Shown here: positions 1,033 through 12,445 of the stretch, in pieces
Layout: each line of letters starts with the position of its first letter
Numbering within the stretch: the first letter of the stretch is position 1
Source: an uncultured Roseburia sp.
GTDB lineage: Bacteria > Bacillota_A > Clostridia > Lachnospirales > Lachnospiraceae
Assembly (NCBI GenBank): GCA_900753715.1
Contig: CAAEAE010000122.1
Span: 1-20,697 of the forward strand
Direction: 5' to 3'
Length of the DNA: 20,697 nucleotides
Notes under the pieces: model-generated
The model's database searches: none
What the model was told of the DNA's origin: nothing
Seen by the model: the letters and a program-made list of their open reading frames with translations, nothing else
Position numbers and translations under genes: made by a program

Positions 1033-2058
1033 TTAACGTTCTCCCAGTTTTAAGTTCGGCACTGCGTTTAAATCCAGCCCGTCTCTTTTTCCACCAATAA
1101 AATCATAATATGCTGCTGCTCCAATCATCGCCGCATTATCCGTACACAGAATTGGCGACGGATGGTAAAATGCCACGCCTTTTTTCTCACATGCCTCGCG
1201 CATCCCTTCCCGCAGTGCTCCATTGGACGCCACGCCGCCTGCAATTGCAAATTTGTCCATTCCAAATTCATCGATTGCTTTCATGGCATTTCCGATTAAG
1301 ACATCCGTCACTGCTTTCTGGAAGGAAGCTGCCACGTCTGCCTGTACAATCTCGATGCCTTTCATTTTACACCCGTTGAGGTAATTGAGTACTGCCGATT
1401 TGAGTCCGCTGAAACTAAAGTCATAAGGTCCGTCTGCTATTTTAGCGCGTGGAAACTCGATGGCATGAGGATTTCCTTCTCTTGCCACCTTCTCAATCTT
1501 CGGTCCACCCGGATAGCCAAGTCCGATTGCCCGCGCTACCTTATCAAATGCTTCTCCCGCCGCATCGTCACGGGTTCTTCCCAGTATCTCGTATTTTCCG
1601 TAGTCTGCAACCTTCACAAGATGCGTATGTCCTCCTGAAACTACCAGACATAAAAACGGAGGTTCTAACTCTTTGTTTTCGATATAATTGGCGCTGATAT
1701 GCCCTTCAATATGGTGGACTCCCACCAACGGTTTGCCGGATGCATAACTGATTGCCTTTGCCTCTGCCACTCCGACTAACAATGCACCCACTAAGCCCGG
1801 TCCATAGGTCACTCCAATGGCATCCATCTCTTTGAGCGTCATGTCTGCATCGGAGAGTGCCTGTGTGATTACCTGATTAATCTTTTCAATGTGCTTACGT
1901 GAAGCAATCTCCGGCACTACACCTCCATAGAGCGTATGCAATGCAATCTGGGATGATATGACATTACTGCGGACATCCCTTCCATTTACCACAACTGCTG
2001 CCGCAGTCTCATCACAGGAACTTTCAATTGCCAATATTTTTACTTCTTTTTCACTCAT
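1033..2058 (-). CDS. tsaD: tRNA N6-threonylcarbamoyladenosine synthase subunit TsaD
   Basis: TsaD (Kae1/YgjD family) transfers the threonylcarbamoyl group from threonylcarbamoyl-AMP to A37 of tRNAs that read ANN codons, together with TsaB and TsaE. The start [11 protein letters not shown] is the family signature. The metal-binding HxxxH motif is at H116 and H120 (VHHIEGH), SGGHTHLV follows near 141, and [10 protein letters not shown] and CTDNAAMIG mark the nucleotide-binding C-terminal lobe. At 341 residues it is full length. Its ATG overlaps the end of the upstream DUF6715-like gene by 8 bases, suggesting translational coupling. tsaE and tsaB are in the same cluster. Confidence 0.97.
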
Positions 2059-2632
2059 TTGAAGAGTCTCCTTCTGTCAGATAGAAGACTAAAATCTTCC
2101 ACTTTCCATCTGTATCTTTTCTAAGTACATAAGTCTGATATGTGCGTTCATACGATTTTGCTTTTCCATTTGAAATAAAATAATTCACCGTCACATATGC
2201 ACATTCCCTGCTGTCTATCGTTTTAAACTCGACTTCATTTGAAGAACATACAGATGCACTGTTGATGGTTTTTTCCTGGCTCTTATAATCTTCGATTTCC
2301 AGTTTTAAATCTTCAAAATACTGGTCTCTTGGATTGTTTTCAAGCAATTCCTCATCAAACAACAGTCTTGCCTGATCTCCTAATGCCGTCACTTCATCTT
2401 CCGTACAGTCTGAATTGTAAAAGCAGCTGATAATCCGGTTATACAGTTTCACCACTTCCCGCGGTGTCGCAGGATAGTTCTTTTCGATATCCATCGCTGC
2501 CAACTTCTGTACTTCCGTAAGTTCCGTCTCATCTGCCGTATTGTGTCCGCGGCTCCAGGTGATATACCCGAACAGACCGATAACCACAAGTACACATACA
2601 ATCGCTGCAATCACTGAATTTCTTTTTTTCAT
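2051..2632 (-). CDS. DUF6715-like membrane-anchored protein of unknown function
   Basis: The 193-residue product starts with KK and a single hydrophobic segment (about residues 7-25), followed by an acidic extracytoplasmic domain. This resembles small Lachnospiraceae proteins grouped as DUF6715. The anchor has no lipobox. The tail has a beta-rich pattern ([27 protein letters not shown]) like NTF2-fold or DUF4878-type domains, which is inference only. The start at 2632 is chosen because GGGAGGAG lies at proper distance; an upstream in-frame ATG would overlap rnz. The gene sits between rnz and tsaD and overlaps tsaD by 8 bases. No function can be assigned. Confidence 0.85.
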
Positions 2633-2651
2633 AGGTATCTCCTCCCTAGTT

Positions 2652-3572
2652 CTACGCTTCGTCCTCCTCAAACAGCAATTCTACTGTTTTGCCATCCTTT
2701 CCAAGCTTTGCATTCGGAAAGGTCTGTAAGACCTGCGGCATATAGTCTTCCGCACGCACCAGCGAAGGCGAAAAATGGGTGAGCCACATTTCTGCCACCT
2801 CCGCACGCTTTGCCATTTCTGCCGCTTCGTAAAACGTCATATGTTTATACTGCTTTGCCTTTACCAGCTTCTCCTTCTCTGCATACATTCCCTCGCAAAT
2901 AAAAAGGTCGGAGCCTCTCGCCGACTGTACGATGGACTCTGTCGGTCTGCTGTCCGTACAGTACGTAACCTTGATGCCCTTTCTGGCTGCCCCAAGCACC
3001 ATATCCGGTGTGTAGACGTCTCCCTGTTCGGTGTGTATGGTTTCGCCCTTCTGTAAGCGGTTCCAGTAGCACTGCGGAATCTGTTTTTCTCTTGCCCGCT
3101 CCACCTGAAATCGTCCACATCTCTTGATTTCCACTGCATAGCCGTAACAGATGACACTGTGGCTTACCCGAAATGCATGGATATGGTATCCGTTTATCTC
3201 TATATCGGCTTCCGGTTCCGTAATTTCAATATATTTCAGTGTAAAAGGAAGTTCCGGTGCTATCGTCCGAAGTGCGGATACCACCCGTTCAAGTCCTTTG
3301 GGTCCAATTAAAGTCAGCGGCTCGGTGCGCTCTGCGTTTCCCATCGTAAGCAAAAGCCCTGGCAGACCGCTGATATGGTCCGCGTGATAATGGGTAAAGC
3401 AGATGACATCGATTGGTTTAAATGTCCAGCCTTTTTCTTTTATGGCAATCTGCGTTCCCTCTCCGCAATCAATTAACAGGCTGCTGCCGTTGTAACGCAT
3501 CATCGCCGCCGTAAGCCAGCGGTGAGGGAGCGGCATCATTCCTGCTGTTCCTAACAGGCATACATCTAACAT
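2652..3572 (-). CDS. rnz: Ribonuclease Z
   Basis: RNase Z is a zinc-dependent endonuclease of the metallo-beta-lactamase superfamily that cuts the 3' trailer from tRNA precursors, especially those without an encoded CCA. The HxHxDH motif is at 61-66 (THYHADHISGLPG). Downstream metal ligands appear as VSHSV, CTDSRP and LTHFSPS. The 306-residue length matches the short bacterial form. A ribosome binding site AGGAG precedes the ATG. It lies within the t6A cluster, and the nearby tRNA-Ser(UGA) lacks an encoded CCA, so it is a plausible substrate. Other metallo-beta-lactamase hydrolases are less likely given these motifs. Confidence 0.93.
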   Translation of the reverse strand: MLDVCLLGTAGMMPLPHRWLTAAMMRYNGSSLLIDCGEGTQIAIKEKGWTFKPIDVICFTHYHADHISGLPGLLLTMGNAERTEPLTLIGPKGLERVVSALRTIAPELPFTLKYIEITEPEADIEINGYHIHAFRVSHSVICYGYAVEIKRCGRFQVERAREKQIPQCYWNRLQKGETIHTEQGDVYTPDMVLGAARKGIKVTYCTDSRPTESIVQSARGSDLFICEGMYAEKEKLVKAKQYKHMTFYEAAEMAKRAEVAEMWLTHFSPSLVRAEDYMPQVLQTFPNAKLGKDGKTVELLFEEDEA

Positions 3573-5509: not shown

Positions 5510-6007
5510 CTATTTCATTTTTATACGAAATTTCTCTAATTTTTCTTTTGCCAGATTGGAGAGTGCCTGATAGTTTTCCCCGAGCTGCTCTCTCGGAATG
5601 ACATAAGCATTTTTCCGGCTGCTGTACACCAGAACATTTCTCTTCGTTGCCACCATCTTATAAATCTGGTTCCACCCAAGTTCTGCCGATGCCTCTCCCT
5701 GGGATACCTTAAATCCGTCTGCATCTACCACATAATGTAACGGCTTTGACAGCTCTTACGATGCCGCAATGCTCTGTCTGGAGCGCAGCTTTAAGGTAAC
5801 CGGTGCATAAAACAGGAATAAAATTCCAAACACCGCATAAAGCAACGTATAAGTCATCTCCACGGTTCCAAAGGTGTAAACCGTCAAAACAAGCATCGCA
5901 ATTCCAAGGACAATCGAAATCCATCCGTGTATTCCCGTATACATCTGATACATATTAAAACGATATAAATCTTCCGGCTTTAAACGAACCTCAAATTCTA
6001 CCTGCAT
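5510..6007 (-). pseudogene. YcxB-like membrane protein gene broken by an in-frame stop
   Basis: The frame starts at 6007 behind AGAGGAG and encodes 83 residues: a beta-rich N-terminus, two membrane helices (about 29-46 and 50-68) and KLRSRQSIAAS. It then meets TAA at 5756-5758. The same frame continues as ELSKPLHYVVDADGFKVSQG and runs to 5510 with the YcxB-type C-terminal domain (WNQIYKMVATKRNVLVYSSRKNAY). No shift is needed: reading one sense codon instead of the stop restores a protein of about 165 residues, the usual family size. GAA or CAA or AAA to TAA by a single substitution would explain it. A GTG at 5731 could start the tail on its own but has no good ribosome binding site. Confidence 0.85.
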
Positions 6008-6032: not shown

Positions 6033-6635
6033 TTATCTGGCAGTGCCCTTTAACAGTGGTGAAATATGCTTGTAAATCAAAAATGTAATGACCACCGACA
6101 GCATTCCTTTTACAAATGTAAATGGCATATTAAAGAAAATCAAACATTGCAAGATGTTCTTCATCGATGGCAGTATTGCCTGATATGCTGCAAGGATTGT
6201 CTCTTGTGGCATGAAATTATAATAAAACGGATATACAAACAGGTAATTGGAAAAAACGCTGATTACTGCCATAAACGCAGCCCCTAACAAGGAGCCGGCA
6301 AGAGCGCTTTTCCGGCTCTTTTTGTGCTTATAAATCAGTCCTGCCGGAAGTACAAACGCCGTTCCGAGGATAAAGTTGGAAAGTTCCCCAACGCCTCCGG
6401 TGCTGCTTACGGTAAGGTGCAGTATATTTTTTATCAGACACACCATCACCCCGCACGCTGGCCCCATCGCAAAGGAACCAATCAGTGCCGGAAGCTCGGA
6501 AAAATCCATCTGGATAAAGCTTGGTATCAAAAATGCAATTGGAAAATCAAAAAGCATTAACACAAATGCGATTGCGGATAACATTGCCGTCACCGTCAGA
6601 TAACGGACATTTATCATTTTATTCTGCCTACTCAT
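6033..6635 (-). CDS. ribU: ECF transporter S component, riboflavin-type (RibU)
   Basis: RibU is the membrane substrate-binding subunit of energy-coupling-factor transporters, taking up riboflavin with a shared EcfT and EcfA module that is not in this window. The 200-residue protein has about six hydrophobic segments. It shows the RibU-like stretch PSFIQMDFSELPALIGSFA (near 38-56), GVGELSNFILGTAFVLPAG, and the N-terminal helix that docks EcfT. AGGAG lies six bases before the ATG, 14 bases after the tex stop. No FMN riboswitch is visible because the upstream space is occupied by tex, so it is probably expressed with tex. Substrate assignment is by similarity. Confidence 0.87.
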   Translation of the reverse strand: MSRQNKMINVRYLTVTAMLSAIAFVLMLFDFPIAFLIPSFIQMDFSELPALIGSFAMGPACGVMVCLIKNILHLTVSSTGGVGELSNFILGTAFVLPAGLIYKHKKSRKSALAGSLLGAAFMAVISVFSNYLFVYPFYYNFMPQETILAAYQAILPSMKNILQCLIFFNMPFTFVKGMLSVVITFLIYKHISPLLKGTAR

Positions 6636-6649
6636 CTTCTGCTCCTGTT

Positions 6650-8797
6650 CTAGTCGTTTAATTTCATTGTAAGCTGGATGCGCTGTTTCTTCAAATCCAC
6701 GCTCATCACCTTCACCTCTACGATATCGCCGACACTCACTACCTCAAGCGGGTGCTTAATATAGCGGTCGCTCATCTGCGAGATATGCACCAGTCCGTCC
6801 TGATGCACACCGATATCGACAAATGCTCCGAAATCAATGACGTTGCGCACCGTTCCCTTTAAAATCATTCCCGGTGTCAAATCCTTCATTTCCAGAACAT
6901 CACTTCGTAAAATTGGCTTTGGCATATCCTCTCTCGGGTCTCTTGCCGGTTTCTCCAGCTCTTTTACAATATCTTCAAGAGTCAGTGCACCAACGCCGAG
7001 TGTCTCTGCCAGTTTTTTGTAATCTGTAATTTTCTTTGCAATTCCGCCAAGCCTGCGCTCTTTTACATCCTCTAGGGTGTGACCTGTCCGCTCAAGCAGT
7101 TTCTTTGCCGCATCGTAGCTCTCCGGATGAACACCTGTGGCATCCAGCGGATTTTTGCCATCGTTAATCCGGAGGAATCCGGCACACTGCTCATATGCCT
7201 TCGGTCCAAGCTTCGGAACCTTCAAAAGCTGGGCGCGGGAGGTAAATTTGCCGTTTTCTTCACGGTACGTGACTATATTTTTTGCAATTGCCTTACTGAT
7301 ACCGGAGATATATTCCAAAAGGGATGCCGACGCGGTATTTAAATCCACTCCGACACGGTTTACGCAGTCCTCTACAACGCCCTCAAGTGCCTCGCTGAGC
7401 TTCTTCTGGTTCATATCATGCTGATACTGTCCAACACCGATGGATTTCGGGTCAATCTTTACCAGCTCTGCCAGTGGGTCCTGTAAACGTCTTGCCATGG
7501 ATGTCGCACTTCTTTGTCCCACGTCAAAGTTCGGAAATTCTTCGGTTGCCAGCTTGCTTGCGGAATATACGGATGCGCCTGCTTCATTTACAATAATATA
7601 CTGTACCTTCACCGGAATTTCTTTTAAGAGTTCCACAATCACCTGCTCGGACTCTCTTGAGGCAGTTCCGTTTCCGAGTGAAATCAGTGTAATATGGTAT
7701 TTTGCAATAAGCTTCTTTAAGACTGTTTTCGCTTCCTCTACCTTGTTCTGCGGTGCTGTCGGATAAATAACTGTCGTATCAAGCACTTTTCCGGTCGGGT
7801 CCACAACTGCTAACTTACAGCCGGTACGGAATGCCGGGTCCCAGCCGAGTACAACCTGTCCGGCAATCGGCGGCTGCATCAACAACTGCTCTAAGTTCTT
7901 TCCAAACACACGGATGGCTCCGTCCTCTGCCATCTCTGTCAGACTGCTTCTGATTTCACGTTCAATCGCCGGGGCAATCAACCGCTCATAAGCATCTGCG
8001 ACCGTCTCTTTTAAGACGCTCGTCGTTTCTTTATTATCCCGCGTAATCACCTGTTTCTCTAAGTAACGCAGAATCTCTTCCTCCGGTGCCTCAACCTTGA
8101 CCGTCAATATCTTTTCGTTCTCTCCACGGTTTAATGCAAGGATTCTGTGTCCTGCGAGCTTTGCGACCGGCTCGTCAAATTCGTAGTACATCTCATACAC
8201 GGATTCCGCTTCCGGGTCTTTTGCCGTGGATGTCACACGTCCTTTTTTAAAAGTAAGGTCACGGATTCTGGTACGGTAATCCGCTTCATCGGAAATCGCT
8301 TCCGCGATGATATCTTTTGCACCCTCAATCGCTTCTTCTGCGCTGTTTACCTCTTTTTCCGGGTCAATATACTTTGCGGCTTCCGCATCAAGCGGTGTTT
8401 TTATCATCTGAAGCGTAATAATGCCTGCTAGCGGCTCTAATCCTTTTTCTTTGGCAATCGTTGCCCTGGTGCGGCGCTTTGGCTTATACGGGCGGTATAA
8501 ATCCTCCACTGCAACCATCGTCTCCGCAGCAAGAATCTGGTTTCTTAACTCCTCTGTCAGTTTTCCCTGTTCTTCTATGCTTGCAAGCACCGTCTCCTTG
8601 CGTTCTTCAAGATTGCGCAAATAGTTCAGACGTTCATACAGGTTACGGAGCACCTCATCGTTTAATGCACCGGTTGCCTCCTTGCGGTAACGTGCGATAA
8701 ACGGGATGGTATTTCCCTCGTCAATCAGCTTTACCGCAGCTTCTGCCTGCTGTCTGCGTATTCCAAGTTCTTCGGATATCTTTGCTATAATGTCCAT
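6650..8797 (-). CDS. tex: Tex/YdcI-type RNA-binding transcription accessory protein
   Basis: Tex is a conserved cytosolic nucleic-acid-binding protein linked to transcription processes. The 715-residue product matches the family size. It has an N-terminal helical domain (residues 1 to about 200, with EGNTIPFIARYRKEATG), a YqgF/RNase H-like domain (about 315-440, starting VVLGWDPAFRTGCKLAVVD), a helix-hairpin-helix region (about 495-560, LLEYISGISKAIAKNIV) and a C-terminal S1 RNA-binding domain (about 640-712, GTVRNVIDFGAFVDIGVHQD). GAGGA precedes the ATG. It is the first gene of the long leftward cluster. Confidence 0.95.
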   Translation of the reverse strand: MDIIAKISEELGIRRQQAEAAVKLIDEGNTIPFIARYRKEATGALNDEVLRNLYERLNYLRNLEERKETVLASIEEQGKLTEELRNQILAAETMVAVEDLYRPYKPKRRTRATIAKEKGLEPLAGIITLQMIKTPLDAEAAKYIDPEKEVNSAEEAIEGAKDIIAEAISDEADYRTRIRDLTFKKGRVTSTAKDPEAESVYEMYYEFDEPVAKLAGHRILALNRGENEKILTVKVEAPEEEILRYLEKQVITRDNKETTSVLKETVADAYERLIAPAIEREIRSSLTEMAEDGAIRVFGKNLEQLLMQPPIAGQVVLGWDPAFRTGCKLAVVDPTGKVLDTTVIYPTAPQNKVEEAKTVLKKLIAKYHITLISLGNGTASRESEQVIVELLKEIPVKVQYIIVNEAGASVYSASKLATEEFPNFDVGQRSATSMARRLQDPLAELVKIDPKSIGVGQYQHDMNQKKLSEALEGVVEDCVNRVGVDLNTASASLLEYISGISKAIAKNIVTYREENGKFTSRAQLLKVPKLGPKAYEQCAGFLRINDGKNPLDATGVHPESYDAAKKLLERTGHTLEDVKERRLGGIAKKITDYKKLAETLGVGALTLEDIVKELEKPARDPREDMPKPILRSDVLEMKDLTPGMILKGTVRNVIDFGAFVDIGVHQDGLVHISQMSDRYIKHPLEVVSVGDIVEVKVMSVDLKKQRIQLTMKLND

Positions 8798-9714: not shown

Positions 9715-9743
9715 TTAATAGGAGACGCATATGCAAAAATCAA
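9715..9743 (-). promoter_or_regulatory. Weak candidate promoter for the DUF2752 gene
   Basis: On the minus strand TTGATT (9738-9743) and TATTAA (9715-9720) are spaced 17 bases apart, each matching four of six consensus positions. The -35 box would lie inside the start of the divergent DUF975 gene. The implied leader is only about 13 bases. Confidence 0.3.
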
Positions 9744-10477
9744 ACAAAGAGCTAAAACGGTTCGCCCGTGAACAATTAAACGACAAATACAGCATCCCGA
9801 TGGGTGCGTTTGTCATTGCAAATTTAATTGCATCTGTCATAGAAATTCCGTTTTCCATGACCTTAAATCTGGACGGAGACCCTTTCCAGACGGGAATTTA
9901 CCTTGTTGCGCGCTATCTGATTACGCTGATTGCCTCAGTTCTTCAGATAGGCGTTGTATCCATTCACCTGAATCTGACGCGAAAACTCCCCTACCGGATC
10001 TCGGATATTTTCTATCCGTTCCGCAGGGGCGCTGACCGTTTCTTCCTTGCAGCTTTTTTCTTAAGTCTTTTTAATCTGGCTGCAAATATTCCGCTGTTTT
10101 GTACCGCAGCGAATGTATACGTAAACGGTGTCACCGTTTCCTCCTGCCTGCTTCTCGCAGCCGGAGCACTTTGTTCGCTGCTTCTTACTCTCTGTATTTC
10201 ACTGTTTTTTCAGTTTACCAGCTATTTTCTGCTCGACTACCCGCAGATGAAGACGATTGCTGCCTTTAAAGAATCTGCACGCCTGATGCGTGGAAAAAAA
10301 GGACGTTTCTTCTATCTGCTGTTAAGCTTTATCGGCTGGGAATGTCTGGTGTTCTGCTCCATCGGTCTCGCCTCCCTGTGGGTAAATCCTTACCTCACAG
10401 AATCCTACGTGGCATTCTATTTGGATGCCACCGGGGAGATGGACCGGATGGAAGCAGGCACTTCTGAACACTTCTAA
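9731..10477 (+). CDS. DUF975 integral membrane protein
   Basis: The 248-residue protein begins with a short basic amphipathic segment (NKELKRFAREQLNDKY) followed by about five membrane helices. Typical DUF975 features are the opening 'lk..A...L...w', the cytosolic FKESARLMRGKKGRFFYLLLSFIGW, and the end WVNPYLTESYVAFYLD (compare the family's 'PY...t.A.FY..L'). Function is unknown. AGGAG lies six bases before the ATG. Its stop overlaps the stop of the convergent DUF4097-like gene by four bases. Confidence 0.88.
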   Translation: MQKSNKELKRFAREQLNDKYSIPMGAFVIANLIASVIEIPFSMTLNLDGDPFQTGIYLVARYLITLIASVLQIGVVSIHLNLTRKLPYRISDIFYPFRRGADRFFLAAFFLSLFNLAANIPLFCTAANVYVNGVTVSSCLLLAAGALCSLLLTLCISLFFQFTSYFLLDYPQMKTIAAFKESARLMRGKKGRFFYLLLSFIGWECLVFCSIGLASLWVNPYLTESYVAFYLDATGEMDRMEAGTSEHF

Positions 10478-11130
10478 GCGATATTTAAACGGATGGTTCC
10501 GACTCCGCATGATACATGGATGGTTCCCGCCGCTATTCCTGCTGCCTGGCGGTTTCCATCCTTTCTTGACAACTTTTCATCATTGATATAAATCTTTCCG
10601 ATTCCGTAATTCAAATCAAAATTGTAGTCTGTGCTTTTTCCTTCCACATTTATTCCGCACTTTCCAACACCGCAGCTGATATCCATATCGTTTGCCACTG
10701 CTTTTGCAACGTCTAACTGACCGGCTCCGCACTCTGCTGTAAAGGTTTGTGCCTTTATGGAACCGATTTTTGCGTTTCCGGCTCCGACTTCAAATTTTAT
10801 CCGGTCAGAATGAAGCTCTGCCTTCTGCGTATCAAACATTCCCGCGCCAATCTCCGCTTTCACCTTTTCAAATACTTTTCCAGCCGGAACTGTCACGGTA
10901 ATCACCGTCTTGCACTCATTCATATGCAGTTTTTTCTGTTTCATCTTAAAGTGAATCTTAAGCTTCCCATTTTCCAGAGAGGACGAATAGGTTCCGGTTT
11001 CATCCTCCAGAACATCTACCTGAATCTGATTTGAATCTGTGCTCTCTTTGACATAGACTGTTCCACAGCCTACTTCCAGCTTTAACTTCTGTACTTCATC
11101 TGCCTGAAAAACTTCTCTTTTTGTTTCCAT
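10474..11130 (-). CDS. DUF4097-like beta-repeat protein, soluble
   Basis: The 218-residue protein has no signal peptide or membrane helix. It is made of short beta-strand repeats around a G-x-G turn: VGCG (20), IGAG (94), VGAG (115), CGAG (134), CGVG (153), YGIG (175) and CGVG (208), mostly 19-22 residues apart. This is the pattern of DUF4097/DUF2807 or 'toastrack' single-stranded beta-helix domains, often found with envelope-stress regulators. The start at 11130 follows AGGAGG, whose first bases form the stop of the upstream LiaF-like gene, so translation is likely coupled. Its partner upstream ends in a similar repeat domain. Role inferred only: sensing or regulation. Confidence 0.85.
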   Translation of the reverse strand: METKREVFQADEVQKLKLEVGCGTVYVKESTDSNQIQVDVLEDETGTYSSSLENGKLKIHFKMKQKKLHMNECKTVITVTVPAGKVFEKVKAEIGAGMFDTQKAELHSDRIKFEVGAGNAKIGSIKAQTFTAECGAGQLDVAKAVANDMDISCGVGKCGINVEGKSTDYNFDLNYGIGKIYINDEKLSRKDGNRQAAGIAAGTIHVSCGVGTIRLNIA

Positions 11131-11143
11131 ATTGTAGGTCCTC

Positions 11144-11857
11144 CTAAACGAAATAAATTTGTATTGCTCCAAAACTGGTGTCACCTTCCACGCGCAGCAC
11201 CGCCTGGCTGGTTGCCTCGTTTTTTCCATGATAAACGACACTTCCGCAGCTTCTGTCTATCTGCTCTTCCACTCTCCAGCTCCTTGGAAGATACAGTTTG
11301 GTTTGCCCAAAGTTATTGTCTATTTTCACATATGCCACCGGATTCTGAATCACGGCGTTGTCAAAGTAAACGGCAAGGCTTCCGAAATTGTTTTCCAAAT
11401 CTGCCTCGCAGAAATTATCGGAATTGATGTAACGGATAGCGCTTCCAAAATTATTTTCGCAATGAATCCGTTCTCCATCCTCGCGTCTTTCGTCTGATGA
11501 GCCGGCTGAAAAAGTAGTGTCACCATCTCCTATATTTACAGACCAGTGTTTCTTTTTTTTCCCACGAAATATCATGGAAAGTCCGATGCTTAACAACAGT
11601 GCTGCTCCTAGTACTGTCCACGGCGTATATGCAGTGATTCCGAGCGGTTTGTCATAAATAATCAGGACAAACGCAACTGCAAACAACATCTCAAAAAAGT
11701 TGACTCTACGGACTCCCTCGATAAACATCCAAATCATAAACACGGTAAGGATGATGCTGAACACACCGACTTTCGGAACAAATCCCATCTGGCTGATGAC
11801 CAGATATACGGCTGCCAGGATAAAAAACATTCCCCATAATTCTCTCGTATGTTTCAT
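11144..11857 (-). CDS. LiaF-like membrane protein with beta-repeat tail
   Basis: The 237-residue protein has four predicted membrane helices (about 8-24, 30-47, 52-68 and 76-97), then a basic RGKKKKHW and a cytosolic tail. The tail has repeated turns ENNFGS (134), ENNFGS (155), DNNFGQ (180), DRSCGS (201) and DTSFGA (226), each followed by a beta strand. This is the architecture of LiaF/VraT-type proteins, which control cell-envelope stress two-component systems in Firmicutes. Here no LiaRS pair is present; instead a LytTR regulator overlaps it by four bases (ATGA). I infer that it restrains or informs that regulator. Confidence 0.85.
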   Translation of the reverse strand: MKHTRELWGMFFILAAVYLVISQMGFVPKVGVFSIILTVFMIWMFIEGVRRVNFFEMLFAVAFVLIIYDKPLGITAYTPWTVLGAALLLSIGLSMIFRGKKKKHWSVNIGDGDTTFSAGSSDERREDGERIHCENNFGSAIRYINSDNFCEADLENNFGSLAVYFDNAVIQNPVAYVKIDNNFGQTKLYLPRSWRVEEQIDRSCGSVVYHGKNEATSQAVLRVEGDTSFGAIQIYFV

Positions 11858-12315
11858 TTCTGTAACCTCTTTTCTTCTAATTTGCTGATTAGCGGTTTAT
11901 AGTAGGAGCGCGAGACATACACCTGCTTGTGGCTGTGCTGGAATTCCACAAGGCTTGATGCGGTCAGGCTGCGGTTGATGGAATAAATATGATTCGTGTT
12001 TAAAATCGTTGATTTTGACACTCTCATAAAAAATCCGGGAAGCATATCCTCAAGCTCATAGAGCTTATGCTGGGTCTCATACATCTCTTCTTTGGTATGA
12101 GCGGTAATCTTCGTCCCCTCTGTCTGAAAAAACAGAATTTCATTTAACGGAATATAGTACTCTGTGTTGTCCCGGTACAGTGGAAACTTTTCGGATACGT
12201 GCAACACATCATTTACTGCCTGCTGCACCCGCAATACCTGTTCCGTCAGACTCCGGCACCGGATCAGCACCTCATCGTCCGTTAAATTTTCGTCAATGTC
12301 AACCCGTATCTTCAT
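11854..12315 (-). CDS. Stand-alone LytTR-family DNA-binding regulator
   Basis: The 153-residue protein has a LytTR DNA-binding domain at about 45-150: YIPLNEILFFQTEGTKITAHT, then LPGFFMRVSKSTILNTNHI and VSRSYYKPLISKLEEK. There is no response-regulator receiver domain; the first 45 residues form a helical arm starting KIRVDIDENLTDDEV. Such short LytTR proteins are usually paired with small membrane proteins that control them, and here the downstream partner is LiaF-like. The closest purine-rich site, GAGGAG, is about 16 bases before this ATG, which is far; no better start is seen. Confidence 0.9.
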   Translation of the reverse strand: MKIRVDIDENLTDDEVLIRCRSLTEQVLRVQQAVNDVLHVSEKFPLYRDNTEYYIPLNEILFFQTEGTKITAHTKEEMYETQHKLYELEDMLPGFFMRVSKSTILNTNHIYSINRSLTASSLVEFQHSHKQVYVSRSYYKPLISKLEEKRLQK

Positions 12316-12342
12316 TCCAGCTACCCGCTTTCTCCTCTCGTC

Positions 12343-12358
12343 ATGAGGTTTTCCTCAT
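12343..12358. repeat. Inverted repeat in the leader of the LytTR operon
   Basis: ATGAGG and CCTCAT, six bases each, are separated by four bases. The element lies just after the predicted transcription start of the LytTR operon and before its ribosome binding site. It could be an operator or a small 5' hairpin; the sequence does not decide. Confidence 0.45.
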
Positions 12359-12369
12359 CACCTGTACCC

Positions 12370-12398
12370 AGTATAAAAAAAGAACCTCCTGTTGTAAA
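12370..12398 (-). promoter_or_regulatory. Promoter of the LytTR operon, inside the upstream terminator
   Basis: On the minus strand TTTACA (12393-12398), exactly 17 bases and TATACT (12370-12375) form a good sigma-A-type promoter. The -35 box is part of the downstream arm of the mrp terminator stem and the -10 box begins with the last T of its T-tract. Confidence 0.65.
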
Positions 12399-12417
12399 TA
12401 GCATTACAGCAAGAGGT
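12375..12417 (-). terminator. Intrinsic terminator of the ECF-mtnA-mrp operon
   Basis: On the minus strand, about 28 bases after the mrp stop, ACCTCTTGCTGTAA pairs with TTACAACAGGAGGT. The stem is 14 base pairs with one mismatch and one G-T pair, and the loop has six bases. It is followed by TC and a run of seven T. Confidence 0.88.
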
Positions 12418-12445
12418 CAGTTTTCCCCGGTAAGAGGTAATGATT

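Follow-up and report, generated by a model that had tools for sequence, protein, structure and literature searches.

A putative LytTR Regulatory System with an added soluble toastrack gene in an uncultured Roseburia and its predicted exporter target in relatives

Three tightly packed genes on the minus strand of a 20,697-nucleotide stretch from an uncultured Roseburia sp. (assembly GCA_900753715.1, contig CAAEAE010000122.1; the whole stretch is called the window below) encode a LytTR-domain regulator, a LiaF-type membrane protein and a soluble toastrack (DUF4097) protein. Judged by sequence, this trio is a LytTR Regulatory System (LRS) with an added third gene, because a receiver-less LytTR gene stands directly upstream of a gene for a kinase-less DUF2154-type membrane protein and the promoter has the LRS repeat layout. 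The LiaF-type protein is presumed to be the inhibitor of the LytTR protein, and the soluble toastrack is presumed to be a co-induced output. We favour, as the probable reading, an LRS plus an output gene, in which the toastrack is an output, as is an ABC half-exporter in relatives. The basis is the gene order, the domains, a conserved promoter code, a trio kept across one clade, and exporter and toastrack promoters that carry the same code.

Results

The three genes and their proteins

The three genes lie in one tight row on the minus strand, as an earlier note on this DNA had placed them.
11854..12315, minus strand: LytTR-domain regulator, 153 amino acids; PF04397 E=1.3e-21 over residues 53-146; no receiver domain and, by hydropathy, no transmembrane (TM) segment
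11144..11857, minus strand: LiaF-type membrane protein, 237 amino acids; PF22570 (LiaF-TM) E=2.6e-14; PF09922 E=2.7e-4, below the cut-off
10474..11130, minus strand: soluble toastrack (DUF4097) protein, 218 amino acids; PF13349 E=3.8e-10; no TM-like stretch by hydropathy
The first two genes share a 4-base ATGA overlap (CAGAAATGAAAC), and the stop codon of the LiaF gene lies within the ribosome binding site of the toastrack gene (GTTTAGGAGGACCTACAATATGG), so both junctions are as previously described. The likely start of the toastrack gene is the ATG at 11130; a 255-amino-acid version of the frame merely opens at an upstream GTG. The closest named homologues come from a Roseburia sp. assembly (82% identity for LytTR and 72% for LiaF). 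A Pfam scan of 24 open reading frames (ORFs) of the window (seven at E <=1, ten at E <=1e-5 and seven at E <=1e-10) reported no histidine kinase or receiver domain, and the regulator matched PF04397 only, in agreement with the earlier description of a regulator without a receiver.

The LiaF-type protein is predicted, with moderate confidence, to carry a cytosolic toastrack-like beta domain after four TM helices. Its AlphaFold model shows four TM helices followed by a beta tail and is of moderate quality (pLDDT 75, pTM 0.47). The best PDB match of the model is 4qrk, a weak one (E=0.017, prob 1.00), and no PDB match was obtained at E <=0.001; 4qrk is named as a toastrack structure by Ravi et al. 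(2024, PMC11237479). PF09922, the DUF2154 domain, scores weakly on the window protein (21.3 bits vs a cut-off of 29). Precomputed annotations list PF09922 for the majority of the 120 homologues among the matches listed, but not for the five closest. The five N/S-[FC]-G turns previously noticed in the tail are all there, at residues 136, 157, 182, 203 and 228 with steps of 21, 25, 21 and 25, and that number was reached in 0 of 10000 shuffles of residues 106-237.

The soluble protein is modelled as a confident toastrack (pLDDT 92), with a match to 4qrk at E=5.2e-11, and its PF13349 score of 40.0 bits stands against a gathering score of 22.9. The seven GxG turns counted earlier are real (residues 21, 95, 116, 135, 154, 176 and 209; seven were reached in 35 of 10000 shuffles), but only five of them keep the claimed register of 19-22 residues: of the six intervals, four fall in this range (21, 19, 19 and 22) and the other two are 74 and 33. 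Downstream, the toastrack gene and a convergent DUF975 membrane protein gene (9731-10477, plus strand) overlap at their stop codons (10474-10477), which leaves no space for a terminator between them.

Promoter and predicted LytTR site

The operon promoter carries the repeat layout that is commonest among LRS, in which two direct repeats of 9 bp are mostly separated by 12 bp and lie 10 bp from the -35 box (PMC6193735, Table 3).
12430..12438, minus strand: LRS direct repeat 1, ACCTCTTAC, predicted LytTR half-site; exact, and the sole match in the window
12409..12417, minus strand: LRS direct repeat 2, ACCTCTTGC, 12 bp after repeat 1
12393..12398, minus strand: -35 box TTTACA, 10 bp after repeat 2; promoter match 10/12, a class of match that is no commoner in the window than in shuffles
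12384..12390, minus strand: third, inverted half-site AGGAGGT, between the -35 and -10 boxes
12370..12375, minus strand: -10 box TATACT, 17 bp from the -35 box
The interval outlined in the earlier note stops at the -35 box (12398), and the predicted regulator binding site (12409-12438) therefore falls outside it. With up to three mismatches allowed, the repeat pattern occurs once in the window vs 0.04 expected, and it was matched in 4 of 100 shuffles; since the pattern was written after the site had been seen, conservation is a better test than this chance estimate. A short imperfect inverted repeat (TGATGAGG-AAAA-CCTCATGA, 12341-12360) lies in the leader, downstream of the -10 box and ahead of the LytTR gene.

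Conservation of the LytTR-LiaF pair and its promoter

The LytTR-LiaF pair together with its promoter is, from these comparisons, an old and selected unit, because both the pairing and the promoter signature are kept across the family and in a phylum-wide draw. A protein search of 397 genomes from the family of G001, a Lachnospiraceae genome, found a relative of the window LiaF in 68 genomes, and the addition of G002 gave 70 loci in 69 genomes. The LytTR gene adjoins LiaF on the same strand in 58 of the 70 loci, and both are in one reading frame in two more (60/70); LytTR was not found beside LiaF in the other ten loci, one of which lies behind a run of N. The LRS promoter signature, scored as at least 12 of 14 consensus positions, is present in 58 of 60 LytTR-LiaF operons (the window and 59 loci; L002, a near copy of L001, is excluded), whereas of 1036 stretches taken from other parts of these loci 5 reached that score, as did 3 of 300 shuffles. 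Among the 59 operons scoring at least 10, the repeat spacing is 12 bp in 54 and a -35 box beginning with TTT stands at +10 in 55. In the phylum-wide draw, the LiaF profile matches 19 of 398 genomes, and beyond G001 three have an adjoining LytTR gene, with promoters scoring 12-13.

Individual loci differ in how the two genes are joined. LytTR and the LiaF-type protein form a single 385-amino-acid frame in L086 (G038, 6420-7574), and in L093, its close relative, they are two genes with an 8-bp indel difference at the junction; L073 is a second one-frame case with a shortened LytTR part. Each one-frame case comes from a single assembly and is a hint only. If the L086 fusion is true, LytTR would sit at the cytosolic N-terminus of LiaF. 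In L092 (G124) LytTR is lacking and the gene after that of the LiaF-type protein encodes an OmpR-type response regulator (PF00072 and PF00486), an arrangement which suggests that LiaF-type proteins change regulator partners within the family.

Distribution of the soluble toastrack

The toastrack gene marks, as far as these genomes tell, one clade of LytTR-LiaF operons. Most LytTR-LiaF loci examined consist of the pair only, with the soluble toastrack absent. Downstream of LiaF, DUF4097 was found in 3 of 47 frames scanned (the window, L001 and L002), while 24 of 71 loci gave no protein, having no same-strand frame of at least 90 amino acids that starts within 320 nt behind LiaF. The genes behind the other pairs belong to many unrelated families. 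A second search found a LiaF match in 33 of 194 relatives of G001, and 17 of these loci were new (L194-L210). All 17 have LytTR, and the toastrack is the next gene in 11 and not in six; LiaF identity to the window is at least 49% in the 11 toastrack-bearing loci and 36-41% in the six without it. The repeat score is at least 12 in 14 of the new loci, 11 in two and 10 in one. Together with G001 and G002, there are thus 13 trio genomes, and all 13 genomes with a full-length LiaF identity of at least 49% have the toastrack downstream. The earlier note had named a lack of conservation in relatives as one of the findings that would speak against its proposal; the trio is instead kept there. In L001 the toastrack stands beside the pair in different gene surroundings.

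Phylogenies are consistent with this distribution. In the LiaF tree, the window, G001 and close homologues form one supported clade (99/97). The soluble toastracks likewise form one clade of 17 rows (support 97/96), apart from 29 other family loci; the toastrack tree has many long branches and only this clade is used here. Three trio-labelled rows are separated by unlabelled proteins in the LiaF and toastrack trees, so that two changes were counted. Toastrack genes as such are far more widespread than the trio (233 of 397 family genomes). Among the three proteins, the toastrack evolves fastest, with 25-32% identity to trio relatives, followed by LiaF (48-59%) and LytTR (62-68%).

Predicted targets in relatives

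From the promoter sequences of relatives, we predict that an ABC exporter is switched on together with the toastrack. The exact code ACCNCTTRN-12-ACCNCTTRN-10-TTT, scanned in 13 trio and six pair-only genomes, gave 25 sites in 17 of these 19 LiaF-bearing genomes, and the reversed pattern gave none. Twelve of the 25 sites are the operons' own promoters and 13 lie elsewhere. Ten of the latter, each from a different trio genome, precede the gene of one and the same orthologous ABC half-exporter (PF00664 and PF00005), with boxes of the TTTACA-17-TATGAT type. An exact site in G800 precedes a different ABC exporter, and one in G816 precedes a soluble toastrack gene with an ABC exporter gene behind it. 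A further exact site, in G798:C6, lies within a permease gene and was taken as chance. The controls were 20 of 161 relatives that lack LiaF, and they contained one exact site, in G809, again before a soluble toastrack. With 38 candidates scored per genome, the half-exporter was found at E <=1e-60 in 10 of 39 genomes, all of them trio genomes (10 of 13); none of the 6 pair-only and none of the 20 LiaF-less genomes had a match at this level.

The separate toastracks of G816 and G809 lack TM segments and are as close to the window toastrack as those of the trios are. In G809 the toastrack with an LRS-type promoter is on contig C95 (L253), which ends shortly after the gene, and no close LytTR was found. 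Elsewhere, a LiaF-type gene, a TM-bearing toastrack-like gene and an ABC ATPase gene stand in a row in L180 (G665, 1354-3539), a stretch in which no LytTR was found; the toastrack-like gene matches the toastrack profile but not Pfam at 1e-5. Taken at the level of gene order and promoter code, the toastrack, the LRS and ABC exporters are linked in several separate ways.

Relaxing the code to one mismatch in 69 genomes gave matches in 42, with 9 of 48 sites outside the own operon. The reversed control gave 29 hits, and the one-mismatch sites were therefore dropped; they lay inside coding genes (G179, G047, G281 and G155), at a gene end (G382) or in a glycoside hydrolase promoter (G151). In G079:C34 (L138), an LRS-like promoter with one mismatch and a -35 box TTTACG is located ~110 nt before an MFS transporter gene. 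This promoter seems genuine and may represent a further type of target, and it was left out of the counts.

The inverted third half-site

Between the -35 and -10 boxes, each of the 14 operon promoters in the trio clade carries an inverted GNGGT core, as do 11 of the 13 target promoters and 2 of the 62 pair-only ones; these counts are partly post hoc, as the core was shortened after the sequences had been inspected. The full consensus discriminates weakly (at least five of six positions in 3 of 14 trio, 4 of 13 target and 3 of 62 pair-only promoters). The inverted copy in the window, GGAGGT, matches its own ACCTC repeats, and relatives with ACCAC or ACCGC repeats mostly have GTGGT or GCGGT, though not one to one. 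Because the motif is post hoc and the trio genomes are related, we regard the third half-site as a lead and not as proof. The only pair-only promoters with the core, those of L063 (G079) and L065 (G335), have a near-complete inverted copy of the second repeat.

Other features of the window

A YcxB-like protein on the minus strand is apparently split into an 83-amino-acid TM-like part (5756-6007) and a 73-amino-acid PF14317 part (5510-5731) in different frames, which suggests a frameshift or a sequencing error in the gene (5510-6007). An Rfam scan of the window returned two tRNAs and nothing more.

Discussion

Proposed mechanism

In the resting state, the four-TM LiaF-type protein would hold the LytTR activator at the membrane, by analogy with HdrRM of Streptococcus mutans. 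An envelope disturbance felt by the TM part of LiaF would then free the activator, a signal suggested by the envelope-stress role of LiaF and toastrack proteins (PMC11237479, PMC12791056). The freed LytTR protein would bind the pair of direct repeats that precedes the -35 box and activate its own operon, and through this positive feedback the regulator, the inhibitor and the soluble toastrack would increase together. The operon's promoter code probably also drives the unlinked ABC half-exporter of relatives that have the trio. For the toastrack, the likeliest role is that of a scaffold or effector which works in the cytosol close to the membrane during the induced state, in one pathway with the exporter. 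The earlier idea of a kinase-less unit in which the LytTR protein works with a membrane partner fits the LRS definition, and the promoter signature of an LRS is both present and conserved.

Several observations weigh against the reading of an LRS with output genes. The C-terminus of the window LiaF scores under the PF09922 cut-off, 2 of 60 operons fall below 12 consensus positions, and so do 3 of 17 relatives (11 in G796 and G793, and 10, a background score, in G800). The features shared by the trio genomes are not independent, since G001 is nearly a copy of G002 and all of these genomes belong to one clade. The exporter target is known from relatives alone and not from the window's own genome; even there, three of the 13 trio genomes (G806, G824 and G826) have no exporter orthologue among the 38 candidates per genome, and the exporter gene of G808 is split across two reading frames. 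The toastrack promoter of G809 occurs in a genome where LiaF had no match and the LytTR proteins are all distant (26% identity). One-mismatch sites other than the operon's own do not exceed the reversed-pattern control in number.

Alternative explanations

The soluble toastrack could itself be a regulator that competes with or caps LiaF (or LytTR) and thereby sets the threshold or the shut-off of the loop. Toastrack-type beta domains are predicted in both LiaF and the third protein, their genes follow each other head to tail, and the soluble form goes with a single LiaF clade. Such a role is nevertheless doubtful, as many LytTR-LiaF operons with the same promoter code have no toastrack, and LRS-type promoters also precede soluble toastrack genes that are not beside LytTR-LiaF, in one case (G816) with an exporter. 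The faster divergence of the toastrack is weak evidence against a tight fit with its partners. The absence of the toastrack from most pairs and its own LRS-type promoter in G816 and G809 make an output likelier than a second or obligatory gate; for the related proposal of the earlier note, that the two repeat proteins stack or compete on LytTR, nothing was found, and the same two observations speak against it. A bystander role, in which an ordinary two-gene LRS happens to be followed by a toastrack gene, would explain why the pair alone is the common form and why other pairs are trailed by many unrelated gene families. However, this is very unlikely given the toastrack in all 13 genomes with a LiaF at least 49% identical, the different surroundings in L001, and the separate toastrack genes behind LRS-type promoters. 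We give still less credence to a remnant or variant of LiaFSR with its kinase and response regulator encoded elsewhere and LytTR incidental. LiaF-TM and a LiaG-like toastrack are indeed parts of lia operons, and the LiaF gene of G124 precedes a response regulator gene, but LytTR is the neighbour of LiaF in 60 of 70 loci, the predicted site of the LytTR type is conserved, and neither kinase nor receiver was reported in the 24 window ORFs.

A more elaborate possibility, which we consider unlikely as a whole, is a three-layer LRS that acts as a self-latching switch. Here the soluble toastrack, made only after release, would be a decoy of the LiaF cytosolic domain; by binding the activator or LiaF, it would keep the activator off the membrane and latch the system on. 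The inverted third half-site would limit the loop once the activator is abundant, and the ABC half-exporter, induced in parallel, would remove the inducing molecule and so reset the switch. If this were true, the operon would be a kinase-free bistable envelope switch with a beta-helix decoy as its memory element.

Under the favoured reading of the toastrack and exporter as LRS outputs, the promoter code appears sharp enough for targets to be read from genomes, which provides a testable Lachnospiraceae regulon of the own operon, the toastrack and the half-exporter. It would also tie the toastrack domain to exporter control, and the trio clade and the pair-only clades offer a natural contrast for what the soluble toastrack adds.

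Comparison with known systems

Zou et al. (2018, PMC6193735) define an LRS by three elements: a LytTR activator that has no receiver domain, a membrane inhibitor whose gene directly follows that of the activator, and direct repeats of 9 bp. The same source gives as membership features a kinase-less membrane protein with DUF2154 (PF09922) or DUF3021 and repeats 11-13 bp apart; it treats LRS as widespread and counts more than 4600 putative LRS operons, with those of S. mutans the only ones characterized in 2018, and already lists Roseburia intestinalis among the carriers. The S. mutans systems have roles in bacteriocin production, competence and the control of cell death (PMC6193735). Their inhibitor HdrM has DUF2154, the LiaF tail domain (PMC6193735), and HdrRM works by membrane sequestration of the LytTR regulator (PMC13384398). 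The window operon resembles HdrRM-type LRS in its receiver-less LytTR gene, followed by a gene for a DUF2154-type membrane protein, in the spacing of the repeats and the -35 box, and in a repeat similar to the first HdrR repeat, ACCTCTTAG. It differs in having a soluble toastrack gene and an inverted half-site in the spacer, and in its predicted target, an unlinked ABC half-exporter in relatives. Since two other LRS types of S. mutans, like their relatives, have neighbouring ABC transporter genes (PMC6193735), the link between LRS and ABC transporters is as such not new.

The same gene pair is also mentioned, in one sentence on LytTR with LiaI-LiaF-TM/toastrack operons, by Ravi et al. (2024, PMC11237479), who predict a scaffold role for the toastrack domain; that passage differs from our description in naming no LRS, promoter site, regulon or free-standing toastrack partner. 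The judgement of the earlier note that the system is under-described thus applies to the third gene, whereas both LytTR with a DUF2154 inhibitor (2018, PMC6193735) and LytTR with LiaF-TM/toastrack (2024, PMC11237479) had been published.

The lia operon shares the LiaF-TM domain, the toastrack tail and a LiaG-like toastrack with the window; it differs in its LiaS kinase and LiaR, which were not found among the 24 window ORFs scanned. LiaG is membrane-anchored, and the window toastrack has no membrane anchor and scores 38.4 bits vs a cut-off of 285 on the LiaG equivalog NF049997. PspA/LiaH of the PSP system was not reported in those 24 ORFs. The usual setting of toastracks in the family is a PadR-HAAS-toastrack operon: among the 29 best family toastrack loci that are not trios, 25 are accompanied by PadR-like and HAAS-like frames close by, as judged by similarity to L146, which was itself profile-checked. 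In these operons PadR and HAAS replace LytTR and LiaF, and their toastracks lie outside the soluble clade and bear TM segments, a TM-like stretch being present in all 29 non-trio frames; neither PadR nor HAAS was reported in the 24 ORFs of the window. No report of a soluble toastrack as an LRS member, of the exporter target or of the three-site operator was found in the open-licence PMC literature covered, supplements aside. The LytTR-LiaF pair as an LRS has been known since 2018, and what appears to be new in the present system is the soluble toastrack, the predicted exporter target and the candidate three-site operator.

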